In this document: piece by piece, positions 3,079 to 25,834 of the stretch
How the letters are laid out: each line of letters opens with the position of its first letter
How positions within the stretch are numbered: position 1 is the stretch's first letter
Assembly: GCF_026898135.2 (NCBI RefSeq)
Contig: NZ_CP114035.2
Location: forward strand, 5,993,501-6,057,500
Source of the DNA: Pseudomonas fortuita
GTDB lineage: Bacteria > Pseudomonadota > Gammaproteobacteria > Pseudomonadales > Pseudomonadaceae
DNA: 64,000 nt
Direction of reading: 5' to 3'
Made by a program: the position numbers and the translations under genes
The notes under the pieces: generated by a model
Told to the model about the DNA's origin: nothing
What the model saw: the letters and a program-made list of their open reading frames with translations, nothing else
The model's database searches: none

Positions 3079-3397
3079 TCAGACCGCCATCGGCGCTGTC
3101 ATCGGCGCATGGTGCTCATAGCCTTCCAGCCAGAAATCACTCGGCTCGATCTTCTCCAGCCACTCCGGCTCATACTTGCCCGTCTCGGCAAACGCCGGCA
3201 CGCGGTCGCTGATCACCAGCTTCGGCGCTTCCAGCGGCTCGCGCTTGAGCTGCTCGTTCAGCATGTCCAGGTGGTTTTCATACACATGGGCATCGCCAAT
3301 GAAGTAGGTGAACCAGCGTGGGGTGTAACCGGTCAGGCGGCCGAACAGCGACAGCAGCGCCGCGCCTTCGGTGAGGTTGAACGGTGTCCCCAGGCCC
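3079..3397 (-). pseudogene. thyA: Host thyA, 3' fragment (severed by island)
   Basis: The last 106 codons of the host thymidylate synthase gene, beginning at the 6-bp core (3392-3397). The encoded part starts LGTPFNLTEGAALLSL and includes the dUMP-binding segment GDAHVYENH. It lacks the N-terminal half with the catalytic Cys. A run-on frame extends into the island to a GTG at 3483, so a 134-residue hybrid could be translated, but it cannot be an active enzyme. Joined to the 5' fragment (25176-25834) through one core copy, it restores 324 codons exactly. Confidence 0.95.
3392..3397. other. Left insertion core (attL), AGGCCC
   Basis: The hexamer AGGCCC is the point where host thyA sequence stops; the same hexamer occurs at the other junction (25176-25181). 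Host sequence continues on the left side of this copy (GGTGTCCCC) and on the right side of the other (AGGTCGTTGG). A 6-bp core resembles the target size known for Tn554. It is defined by comparing the two thyA fragments, not by a search. Confidence 0.85.
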
Positions 3398-3459
3398 TTC
3401 CTCCGACGTCTTTTTTGCACCAGCAGCCGCAATTCGTGGGCTGCACGGGAGAACACCCT

Positions 3460-3483
3460 GTGTGCATTTATAATCATGCACAC
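3460..3483 (+). promoter_or_regulatory. Palindrome wrapped around a perfect -10 box
   Basis: GTGTGCAT (3460-3467) and ATGCACAC (3476-3483) are exact 8-bp inverted arms, and the 8-nt spacer region contains TATAAT (3469-3474). This looks like an operator overlapping a rightward promoter for the ParB/Srx-Dam genes that start about 140 nt downstream. No good -35 is seen 17 bp upstream, so activation or repression by a dimeric regulator is plausible. A second inverted pair, GCAGCC/GGCTGC (3423-3444), lies just before it near the island end. Confidence 0.5.
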
Positions 3484-3621
3484 TTCGCAACAGACTGTCT
3501 ACATTTCTCTCAATAAGTCAGCGGGTTAGATCTTTCAGACCGCAGCTCGTCTGGGCTTAGGCCGCTTCGCTGGCCAGTTTGTATTATCATCGTGCCAGCA
3601 CTGGATTGCGTAACGGTACAA

Positions 3622-5313
3622 ATGATGAAAATTGACGTAATGATGAGGGACATCCGAGTCATCCCTCTGGACAAAATCAAGCTTGACCAAGAGAACGTCC
3701 GCTTCGGCAACGACGTCGCGCAGAACCAGCGCGAGGCGATCAAGCTCATGCTGTCCGCGCCGGAGGATGCGAAGAAGCTGCTTCGCCTAGCCGAACACAT
3801 CGCTGAGCACGGCCTGGATCCGACTGAACTCCAGCTCGTGACCCCCGATGATGATGGCAACTTCATTGTTCTGGAAGGCAACCGCCGCCTCACGGCACTG
3901 AAGCTTCTGCAACGGCCTGACCTCTGCCCTTCAGATCGCGGCTATAAAGGCTTCCTGAAAGCCCATAACTCTCTGGCGAATGGTGTTCCTGAAGGCTTGC
4001 AGTGCAGCGTTGTAGCATCGCGTGTCGATGGCGACATGTGGATTGAGCTGAAACATACCGGCGAGAATCGTGGTGTAGGCCGAGTAGGCTGGGATAGTGA
4101 CATCAGAGACGAGCGACGGGCCCGTACTACCGGTATTGAATCCATCGGCCGTCAAGTTCGTAACTTGATTACTGAAAACCAACACATCTTCTCCAGCAAA
4201 GCGGAACTCGACGTGTTCGAGGTCGACGTTACAACCCTTACACGTATTTTTTCTTCCAGCCTGGGGCAAAACACTTTCCGCTTGAAAGTCGAGAATAAGC
4301 TGCTTGTGCCACAGCTCCCACTCGAGCATATCGCTCCATCCCTGGAGTTTTTGCTGGATATGTTTGTGTCCCATGGATACAACGTGAACGATGTTCGCAA
4401 ACATGAGAACCAAGTAATCACACTTGGCCACATCCCACCTGAGATTTTGCCACACAAGCTGGCGGAAGCTGCAAAAGTTAAACCCACCCCATCACCCAAG
4501 CCAACTCCAGAACCAACAAAGCCCGAAGTAAATCCAACTACCGAAGCGACCAAACAGGGCACTCTAGATGTCAATGGCCCGACTCCTGAGGGCACCCCGA
4601 GTGAGCCCAACGGAGGTAGCAACCAAGTTATTCCCCCTAATATTGGCGAGCCTACTGAAGGTAAAGGCGCCGAGCAGAAGAATGGAAATGATGGTATAGA
4701 TACCAACACACCACCTGCACAGCCAGGCGTATCTCAAGCACCACAAGTTCCGGATGGCGGCGCAGCCGGAGGTATGCAGGACGGAAAACCCCAACCTGTT
4801 CCTGAGCCCCAGAAAGAGCCTGGAATCCGTGCAAAGCCACAAGTTCGCGCTCGAAAGTTTTTGACCCCATTCTCCTTGAAGATCACCAACTCGAGAATTA
4901 ACTCGATCTACAATGAGCTGCGCACTGTACTGCGCGTTGACGAGTGCCCAAATGCGACCGCAATTACGTTCCGAGTGTTTATGGAAACGACGTGCGATGA
5001 GTACATCCAGCTTCAGAAAGATGCAGGCACGCCAATCAAACGCTGGGATACTAACCAAGAACTAAGAGGTGGCGGCAATGGCGACAAACTGGTTCTGAAG
5101 GTTCAGTCGGTCGTTAAACATCTAGAGGCGGAAAAACGTATGCCCGCACCGGCAGCTAAAGCCATCTTCAAACGTGCTAGCTCCTATGATCAGCCAGGGT
5201 CTATAGACCACTTCAACCTATTCGTTCACGGGGCGCATAGTATCCCTTTGCCATCAGAACTGAAGGACATTGCGGAAGAATATCGCCCAATGCTTGAAGC
5301 CATCTGGAGATGA
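3622..5313 (+). CDS. ParB/sulfiredoxin-fold protein with proline-rich linker
   Basis: About 563 residues. Residues 10-110 form a ParB N-terminal (ParB/Srx) domain: RVIPLDKIKL, an AEHIAEHGL helix, and VLEGNRRLTALKLL, the equivalent of the GERR box that binds CTP or forms the active site in the superfamily. A variable alpha-helical middle is followed by a Pro/Gly/Glu-rich linker (about 285-410, PTPSPKPTPEPTKP) and a separate C-terminal domain (about 415-560). There is no partner ParA, so plasmid partition is unlikely; the partner is the Dam-type methylase 62 nt downstream. The start is unclear (GTG 3592, ATG 3622 or ATG 3640; no strong ribosome site). It may be a DNA-binding or nuclease part of a modification-linked module. 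Confidence 0.75.
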   Translation: MMKIDVMMRDIRVIPLDKIKLDQENVRFGNDVAQNQREAIKLMLSAPEDAKKLLRLAEHIAEHGLDPTELQLVTPDDDGNFIVLEGNRRLTALKLLQRPDLCPSDRGYKGFLKAHNSLANGVPEGLQCSVVASRVDGDMWIELKHTGENRGVGRVGWDSDIRDERRARTTGIESIGRQVRNLITENQHIFSSKAELDVFEVDVTTLTRIFSSSLGQNTFRLKVENKLLVPQLPLEHIAPSLEFLLDMFVSHGYNVNDVRKHENQVITLGHIPPEILPHKLAEAAKVKPTPSPKPTPEPTKPEVNPTTEATKQGTLDVNGPTPEGTPSEPNGGSNQVIPPNIGEPTEGKGAEQKNGNDGIDTNTPPAQPGVSQAPQVPDGGAAGGMQDGKPQPVPEPQKEPGIRAKPQVRARKFLTPFSLKITNSRINSIYNELRTVLRVDECPNATAITFRVFMETTCDEYIQLQKDAGTPIKRWDTNQELRGGGNGDKLVLKVQSVVKHLEAEKRMPAPAAKAIFKRASSYDQPGSIDHFNLFVHGAHSIPLPSELKDIAEEYRPMLEAIWR

Positions 5314-25041: not shown

Positions 25042-25067
25042 CGACTACCCCCTTTTGAAGGCCGCTC

Positions 25068-25095
25068 ATCCTATGCAGAATGTGCAGCTTGTCAA
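25068..25095 (-). promoter_or_regulatory. Promoter of the ginABCD-thyA operon
   Basis: On the minus strand TTGACA (25090-25095), 16 bp, then TAGGAT (25068-25073), about 30 nt before the ginA start and its ribosome site. The -35 is perfect and the -10 matches 4 of 6. It lies inside the island, so it travels with the operon. Transcripts from the host thyA promoter would also enter here. Confidence 0.7.
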
Positions 25096-25129
25096 GGTCA
25101 AGATAAAGTCGGGAGAAAGACAAATTTTT

Positions 25130-25834
25130 TTACGCTGCTAGCACGTACTGTGCGTTATTGGCTGCGTCATATAAAAGGCCCAGGTCGTTGGAGCGGATGT
25201 AAAGGGTCAGGGAAATTTCCTTGGTCTCTACATTCGGGTGGAACTGGTACAGCAGGTGGCACGGCGGCAAGGCCATTTCGTCCAGCTGCGCGCAGTTCCA
25301 GCCGTGGAACAGGATGCGGCGGCTGCCCGGGTCGTTGGCGATGGTGTCCAGGCACTGGCGCACCTGGTCGATGGCCTTGTACAGAATGACGAAGGCGACG
25401 CCGTCCTCTTCGTCCTGGGCGATACGGCGAAAGCCTGCCTTCTCGGCCATTTCGATAGCGGCCGGGTTGCTAAGCGGGATGCGCTTGTAGCCTGGCCACT
25501 GACGCCATTGCACGCCGTAGATCTCGCCCAGGTCGTCATGGCCCTGGCGGAACGGGTTGGCCAGCCACTGGGCGTTTTCGTTAGCGTTCTGGTCCCAGAC
25601 CTTGCAGCCCAGCTCACGGAATTCACCGGCGTTCTTCACGCCACGCAGGAAACCGACCATTTCGCCGATCGCCGACTTGAACGCCAGCTTGCGCGTGGTG
25701 ATGGCCGGGAAGCCCTTCTGCAGGTCGAAGCGCAGCATGGCGCCCGGCATGCTGATGGTACGGATGCCGGTGCGATTGCCTTGCAACGTACCGTTCTCGA
25801 TGACTTCACGGACCAGATCTAGATACTGTTTCAT
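25130..25834 (-). pseudogene. thyA: Host thyA, 5' fragment (severed by island)
   Basis: The first 219 codons of host thymidylate synthase, then 15 island-encoded codons (ending AANNAQYVLAA) and a stop at 25130. It retains RTG near residue 21, the long-form segment PFRQGHDDLGEIYGVQWRQW, and catalytic Cys192 (LPPCHLLYQF), but loses half the dUMP site (PFN, GDAHVYENH) and the C-terminus, so it should be inactive. Since ThyA is a dimer, a stable fragment might interfere, but that is speculative. ATG 25834 with AGGA upstream is the native start. Native promoter and start are intact, so transcription continues into ginA. Confidence 0.95.
25176..25181. other. Right insertion core (attR), AGGCCC
   Basis: Direct repeat of 3392-3397 at the junction between island right end and host thyA 5' part. 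On the thyA coding strand it is GGGCCT within CTG-GGC-CTG of the codons for DLGLG. Removing 3398-25181 rejoins thyA in frame. Confidence 0.85.

Follow-up and report, generated by a model that had tools for sequence, protein, structure and literature searches.

A GInt island that splits thyA of Pseudomonas fortuita and likely stands in for it with a diverged thyA of its own

How can a bacterium tolerate a genomic island in the middle of thyA, a gene for thymidylate synthase that is expected to be essential? The question is raised by a stretch of 64,000 nucleotides (nt) of Pseudomonas fortuita (contig NZ_CP114035.2, positions 5,993,501 to 6,057,500), which is referred to below, at its full length, as the window. 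Among known elements, many stay out of essential genes or rebuild the ends of those they enter, and some restore the 3' or 5' end of the target gene, thereby repairing the insertion damage. Such end-restoring elements supply a fragment of the same gene, whereas the island described here carries a whole diverged gene and the host gene stays broken. From the comparisons below it is very probable that an element of the GInt family split the host thyA within its most conserved codons, and that the intact, diverged thyA located behind its gin genes ensures survival of the host and makes it depend on the island. This element lineage would then have its home in the interior of a presumably essential gene, paying with a complete substitute.

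The hexanucleotide AGGCCC of the window sequence is located at both breaks of the host thyA (Table 1). Since this 6-mer is common by itself, with 64 occurrences in the whole window against 53 expected, the weight rests on its placement at the two breaks. With the core counted once, the two parts of the gene add up to 972 nt, corresponding to 323 codons plus a stop codon without any internal stop, and the frame of the 5' part continues for 15 codons into the island up to a stop at 25130, forming an open frame of 234 codons. When the 5' part was used as a query against 18 other genomes, the long ThyA type was detected in eight and was whole in all eight, the match stopping at residue 220 within an open frame of 324 codons (seven genomes) or 355 codons (one genome). 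The break is located between Asp169-x-x-Leu172 and Gly173 (E. coli numbering, from the alignment) in a highly conserved stretch of ThyA, and the same position is used in three types of host ThyA, long (323 residues), short (277) and E. coli-like (264). Counted on the alignment, it falls within R166-N177 of E. coli ThyA, with the 3' part starting in mid-motif; this stretch is presumably involved in the binding of deoxyuridine monophosphate (dUMP).

The ThyA encoded by the island is about 35% identical to the long-type protein of the host. In the single-contig genome of 6.31 Mb, the profile PF00303 detected three places, the island ThyA and the two parts of the host thyA, and profile searches of this genome gave no match for ThyX (control search positive in 6 of 14 known genomes) nor for thymidine kinase (control positive in 8 of 14). 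The island ThyA is the sole intact thymidylate synthase found in the genome of the window. Given the lack of a thymidine kinase match, the cell is not expected to salvage thymidine through this enzyme, and thymidine may not rescue the loss of the island gene. Residues C159, R179, S180, D182, N190, H220 and Y222 (E. coli numbering), which we take to be functional residues of E. coli ThyA, were invariant in eight island ThyA proteins aligned. An earlier note on this DNA had described a host thyA split at a 6-bp core into the fragments of one 323-codon gene, together with a full-length 277-residue island ThyA distinct from it, and had pointed to another functional thyA or thyX as a possible objection; both descriptions stand, given the located cores, the open joined frame, the PF00303 match and the degree of identity, and no other gene of either kind was found by the PF00303 and ThyX profile searches.

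A search of named genomes with GinC detected seven relatives, all in Pseudomonas. All seven carry ThyA behind ginD, and the PF00303 search of each genome gave one intact ThyA, that of the island, together with the pieces of a split host thyA (in G007 the 5' piece is matched twice, and in G003 and G004 the pieces are on different contigs). For a wider scan with PF00303, 398 genomes were drawn evenly from the genus of the window. A match was obtained in 396 genomes, each with a best E-value below 1e-80, which is the range of whole genes, since half thyA genes score 1e-67 or weaker except for halves of the E. coli-like type, which accompany a better match; the two genomes without a match were G225 (86% complete) and G280 (1200 contigs). 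An island-type ThyA was present in 21 of the 398 genomes (E 2.3e-112 to 3.4e-110), with the host thyA split in 20 and intact in one (G392). Five of these 21 agree with named relatives in contig numbers and coordinates and were treated as identical to them. Together with two elements from outside the sample (G005 and G006), a collection of 23 gin-thyA elements in 23 genomes was constructed. The 277-residue ThyA follows ginD in all 23, the gap being -4 nt in 20, +9 nt in two and +108 nt in one, and 22 elements are inserted into a split host thyA at the same position of ThyA, in the GInt mode of site-specific insertion with short direct repeats. None of these 22 GInts in thyA, that of the window included, lacks the stand-in, which answers the earlier suggestion that related islands might be without a replacement. 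As 15 of the 23 elements were found through their ThyA, however, its presence is no test for them, and the fair tests are the seven relatives found by GinC and the GinC scan of the sample. In 16 of the 22 cases, a single contig contains both parts of the host gene. In a wider sample of 369 genomes of Gammaproteobacteria, the GinC profile gave a sole match at E 1e-20, the window's own, and among the best 120 of 7993 matches of a protein search, those named by organism were Pseudomonas and one came from a compost metagenome.

In the GinC scan, 27 of the 398 genomes were detected, including the 21 genomes with island-type ThyA and six more; because the profile was built from thyA-carrying elements, distant GInts, for example those in ssb, may be missed. 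Among the 27, an island-type ThyA and a split thyA occur together in 20, the island-type ThyA alone in one, the split alone in none and neither in six (Fisher p 2.4e-5, a guide only, as the genomes are related and not independent). Each of the six further genomes has a single full-strength ThyA match, that of the host, and no ThyA near gin. In four of them (G330, G377, G064 and G340) the GInt has split nadE, likewise predicted to be a vital gene, within its conserved stretch GTDHAAEAV/GFFTKFGDG. In all four, the sole intact nicotinamide adenine dinucleotide (NAD) synthase is a frame of 565-607 residues with a nitrilase domain (CN_hydrolase plus NAD_synthase), whose start is some 150-300 nt distant from the 3' part of nadE and which is oriented away from that part. 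By its domains, this predicted stand-in is an NAD synthetase of the glutamine-dependent type, different from the split nadE. A long NadE is not rare in the genus by itself, so that its pairing with a split nadE is what matters; for G340, with 790 kb between its two parts of nadE, one has to assume a rearrangement. The two remaining genomes (G279 and G113) carry a GInt in a DUF808 gene, and in G113 (L229 2883-4508, L231) an intact DUF808 gene directly precedes the 3' part, the gin genes being on a different contig. Overall, 25 of the 26 GInts in a split gene of the sample go with a whole substitute at the island, and since sister GInts do likewise with nadE, the arrangement is not special to thyA.

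Two further observations concern nadE. In G094 (L232 7231-9519) a nadE 3' part lies next to a long NadE that is 97% like that of a nadE-splitting GInt, and no gin match was found on 60 kb of the contig nor by the GinC profile; this is possibly a decayed element that kept its stand-in, or an assembly gap. In G231, three NAD synthase matches were obtained.

The origin of the stand-in was analyzed by comparison of distances. In the tree, the ThyAs of the islands cluster together next to the chromosomal short type (support 90/58; recovered in 91% of bootstrap trees; midpoint root), and the two subgroups of this cluster, with 12 and 11 members, coincide with the two gin subfamilies. Distances between the ThyAs are correlated with those of GinA to GinD (r 0.87-0.91, none of 2000 permutations as high; 21 to 25 elements, including two near-duplicate remnants) and hardly with those of the host thyA halves (r 0.13, n=20; 124 of 2000 permutations as high), indicating that the gene travels with the recombinases and is not acquired from each host. 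The ratio of nonsynonymous to synonymous substitution rates (dN/dS), determined between the window and five relatives, was 0.005-0.029 for thyA and 0.06-0.16 for the gin genes where computable, synonymous sites being near saturation in several of these pairs, and that of thyA against all 22 other elements was 0.003-0.076 in the 15 computable pairs. These ratios show strong purifying selection on the island thyA.

The cores at the junctions give a hint of where the elements came from. The near junction, on the gin side, keeps the host codons, while the 6-nt core of the far junction varies among elements; in the window both cores are alike. A similar behavior is described, in the available sections of the report, for strand-biased circularizing integrative elements (SEs), in which the far core derives from the donor site, the host core going to attL and the element core to attR (PMC10214605). 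The 6-nt core preserves the reading frame of thyA. Twelve of the 22 far cores can be translated as ThyA codons (Gly or Phe followed by Leu), as against 1.4% of the island 6-mers, with the qualification that the far cores are related to each other and that their last bases could stem from the present host. Five of the ThyA-like far cores (G001, G002, G063, G318 and G004) fit another ThyA type than that of the present host, as expected if the elements came from the thyA of another host, and that of G299 is mixed. The other 10 do not fit ThyA codons and could have arisen by drift or from other donors. The idea that the island thyA is immune to its own recombinases by recoding was dropped, because the codons of the window-type island ThyA stay close to the short-type target.

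Whether the insertion in the window can be reversed depends on the gin genes. As in GInts, the order ginABCD, with three recombinase-like genes and a small fourth gene, is present, and the cargo starts at the ginD stop with thyA (overlap of 4 nt). All five genes, ginA, ginB, ginC, ginD and thyA, are aligned in this order behind the 5' part of the host thyA and on its strand. For GinA, the first stretch gave no Pfam match, and an XerA-like match was weak. The in-frame TAA of ginA is unique to the window among seven elements compared, the six relatives being open at this site, and the idea of a conserved stop with readthrough, which came from the spacing of the open reading frames, was dropped for this reason; the stop in the window copy points to a decayed member of the GInts and not to a different family. 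Both ginA stretches were found in 21 further elements, one of them on a plasmid, of which 19 are open and two are broken differently. Overall, gin genes are broken or lost in five of the 23 elements (G000, G007, G087, G277 and G392, the window's element included), some of which draft-assembly errors could account for, and the 277-residue ThyA is whole in all 23; no break was seen in the gin stretches of the other 18, although those of G003 and G395 are only partly on one contig. According to the accessible part of the GInt report, each of the four gin genes is required for excision and integration (PMC5385486). Given this requirement, the in-frame stop in ginA probably blocks self-excision of the window copy, and no second GinC of this clade that might act in trans was detected in this genome by the GinC profile search. 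The copy in the window is thus probably locked in, and restoration of the host thyA through precise excision is unlikely here. The earlier note had argued that loss of the island thyA would leave no ThyA and that precise excision alone restores one: the first part agrees with the island ThyA being the sole intact one found, while the second can hardly apply to a copy with this ginA stop.

The following sequence of events may be proposed. The Gin recombinases would insert the island at the Leu-Gly position of ThyA, and the stand-in would be transcribed together with the gin genes from an island promoter, and perhaps also from the host thyA promoter pointing in the same direction. The stand-in would supply deoxythymidine monophosphate (dTMP) at once, so that the insertion would cost little and would be tolerated because the dTMP supply never stops. 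Afterwards, loss of the island by deletion would be lethal unless the host thyA were restored with it; the host would likely die on losing the island copy, and we infer an "addiction" to the island, by which host survival would be tied to the element without a toxin. With self-excision probably blocked in the window copy, this dependence would become permanent. The same logic would hold for the sister GInts that split nadE and carry an NAD synthetase of the glutamine-dependent type. In a more general form, for which we see somewhat better than even chances, GInts are gene-swapping elements: every lineage has its own host gene, in many cases an essential one such as thyA or nadE, which it enters at the best-conserved codons, and it brings along a diverged whole stand-in for just this gene, so that the insertion is tolerated and the host can hardly delete it, and the far core records the previous host gene as the element hops across thyA types.

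Several observations weigh against the proposal of replacement and dependence. The host thyA parts are on different contigs in six of the 22 cases (G003, G004, G080, G277, G299 and G395). In G392, a gin-thyA remnant without ginA and ginB is located on a 150-kb contig and the host thyA is intact; plasmid p1_Teo6, nearly equal in length to this contig, apparently carries the same remnant, with IS30 beside the cut ginC. Plasmid pZXPA-20-602k (H2) carries a complete gin-thyA element with no split thyA within the 18 kb read. As these two cases indicate, the stand-in thyA also exists where nothing is replaced. One of the 398 genomes (G171) has a thyA that is apparently frame-shifted near its end and no second ThyA, for which a sequencing error is possible. 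No DUF808 replacement was found in G279 (L197, L230), where the host parts are on two contigs, and the support for a single group of island ThyAs is moderate. Finally, the dependence could be a by-product of neutral insertion and not a selected trait.

Among the other explanations, the one that survives best holds that the replacement only gives a safe landing in a highly conserved gene, without lasting dependence, since precise excision readily restores the host gene. The 6-nt core keeping the thyA frame is in its favor, as are the empty sites that the available text of the GInt report describes after excision of some GInts (PMC5385486). Other GInts, however, showed no empty sites in the same text, SEs are described as leaving none in the sections at hand (PMC10214605), and the broken or lost gin genes in five of the 23 elements, the window's among them, speak against ready excision, making this explanation rather unlikely. 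Much less probable is that the diverged ThyA was favored because it withstands inhibitors of the host enzyme, either chemical or made by phages, the insertion switching off the host allele. It would fit the PD-Lambda-5 defence pair on the same island and the divergence of the two ThyAs, but no inhibitor is known, hosts with the related short ThyA type are also hit, and nadE-splitting GInts do the same with another enzyme. We give hardly any credence to the view that thyA belongs to the usual cargo of the island, like the thyA of many phages, and occurs in a thyA-splitting island by coincidence: ThyA matches 3997 records of a phage collection and GInts carry varied cargo (PMC5385486, accessible part), but the stand-in is at a fixed place behind ginD in 23 elements, its distances match those of the gin genes, the six GinC genomes with a GInt in other genes have only the host's ThyA match, and the nadE-splitting sisters carry nadE instead. 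Just as improbable is an active enzyme assembled from the split host fragments, making the island thyA redundant, since, despite the 5' fragment remaining an open frame, the break falls inside the conserved motif, the island ThyA is strongly constrained and, in the part of the tmk report at hand, the fragments did not contribute (PMC10653934).

The proposed replacement of thyA by a GInt has to be compared with known systems. As far as the consulted part of their report goes, the GInts of Bardaji et al. (2017, PMC5385486) are alike in the ginABCD operon at one end, the cargo from the ginD stop, the site-specific insertion with imperfect repeats and the 6-nt staggered exchange. Their sites in that text, however, are an ABC-transporter gene, ssb and a ribonucleotide reductase gene, the target being probably not fully inactivated, whereas the window island interrupts thyA within its best-conserved motif and brings a stand-in. 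The closest precedent in principle is the tmk island of P. putida KT2440 (Wirth et al. 2023, PMC10653934), which, according to the available sections, disrupts an essential gene belonging to the same pathway and harbors dNMPK, whose role as a replacement of Tmk was shown by genetics and which was present in all such islands analyzed by the authors. The same sections describe two recombinase genes, a TetR gene and one unknown gene instead of ginABCD, and a kinase of an unrelated, phage-related family; with thyA as its target and ginABCD as its module, the window island is not a tmk/dNMPK island. SEs share a four-gene recombination module and the behavior of the cores at attL and attR; they carry intA-tfp-intB-srap and are, by the part of the report seen, distinguishable from GInts by sequence (PMC10214605), being set apart here by description. 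Neither thyA nor thymidylate appears in the main text of PMC5385486 or PMC10214605. In the literature searched, mostly without subscription journals and supplementary tables, we found neither thyA as such a site nor GInts behaving in this way, neither a stand-in inherited with the recombinases at a fixed place nor one element family using several genes; for thyA, nadE or replaced-target islands only the tmk case turned up, and for thymidine kinase no paper. GInts and the logic of essential-gene replacement are already known, and the use of this logic by GInts in thyA and in several genes appears to be new. The arrangement had at first been thought undescribed, a claim that fails for the principle, given the tmk/dNMPK case in the accessible part of PMC10653934, and holds for the GInt/thyA version, which was not found in print.

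The arrangement offers an explanation for the replacement of essential enzymes by foreign versions, and could in a simple way account for some of the "pseudogene" calls made in essential genes. It also provides a testable route to permanent domestication, by decay of the gin genes with retention of thyA, and leads one to expect stand-ins in further GInts with a broken target, an expectation borne out here by nadE.

Table 1. Features of the GInt island and the split host thyA, in positions of the window.
Feature	Position	Strand	Remarks
Island thyA, 277 residues	17982..18815	-	PF00303, E 7.1e-111; start codon overlaps ginD stop by 4 nt
Host thyA, 5' part	25176..25834	-	659 nt, ~219 codons; PF00303 partial match; joins 3' part
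Host thyA, 3' part	3079..3397	-	319 nt; PF00303 partial match 121-266
attL core, gin-side junction	25176..25181	-	GGGCCT on coding strand; attL of relatives has the host's own codons
attR core, far junction	3392..3397	-	GGGCCT on coding strand; core varies among relatives
Whole GInt island	3398..25175		~21.8 kb; G+C 0.518 vs 0.643 and 0.626 on the two sides
ginA, tyrosine recombinase	23806..25041	-	interrupted by in-frame TAA at 24256-24258
ginB, tyrosine recombinase, 797 residues	21416..23809	-	PF00589
ginC, recombinase-like, 695 residues	19325..21412	-	PF00589
ginD, 170 residues	18812..19324	-	position behind ginC; Xre-like helix-turn-helix match weak, below curated cut-off
Promoter-like site, sigma-70-like	25068..25095	-	TTGACA-16-TAGGAT, 10/12 consensus matches; just upstream of ginA
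Cargo, PD-Lambda-5 protein A	3592..5313	+	PADLOC PDLC04016, E 2.6e-244
Cargo, PD-Lambda-5 protein B (D12 adenine methyltransferase)	5376..6242	+	PADLOC PDLC04018, E 7.1e-125; PF02086

The promoter-like site upstream of ginA is identical in all 10 window-type elements having that end, the window included, and had no match in 11 distant-type elements, one of them on a plasmid (G299 was left out). As a set, the promoter-like sites of this stretch are not above chance, five being detected against 7.5 in shuffled sequences. The far half of the island contains the PD-Lambda-5 anti-phage defence pair and other cargo. The G+C content over the last 200 bp of the island, looked at for the short AT-rich 3' end of GInts, is 0.51, as compared with 0.518 for the whole island.

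Further arrangements at thyA were observed in the sample. In G282 (L107 2393-17548), a different island of 14 kb without a gin match splits thyA at PPCH/LLYQF and carries its own short-type ThyA immediately next to the break, along with TIR-like and capP-like genes, apparently a second, independent case of replacing a split thyA. In G299 (L110 4399-12782), a long-type thyA fragment, a short-type thyA fragment and the gin-thyA element are aligned, with the long-type 3' part on another contig; here two events are perhaps stacked at one site. In G144 (L108 4129-5947), the intact thyA has two additional copies of its last quarter behind it, which may be scars left by elements replacing the 3' end. 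Weak second matches of the ThyA family were detected in G137, G181, G242 and G289, and contig-end pieces in G247 and G373. The island of the window also contains the C-terminal domain of an MvaT-type xenogeneic silencer (PF22055; 9356-9730), and an MvaT/MvaU gene is likewise located near the gin-thyA remnant of plasmid p1_Teo6.

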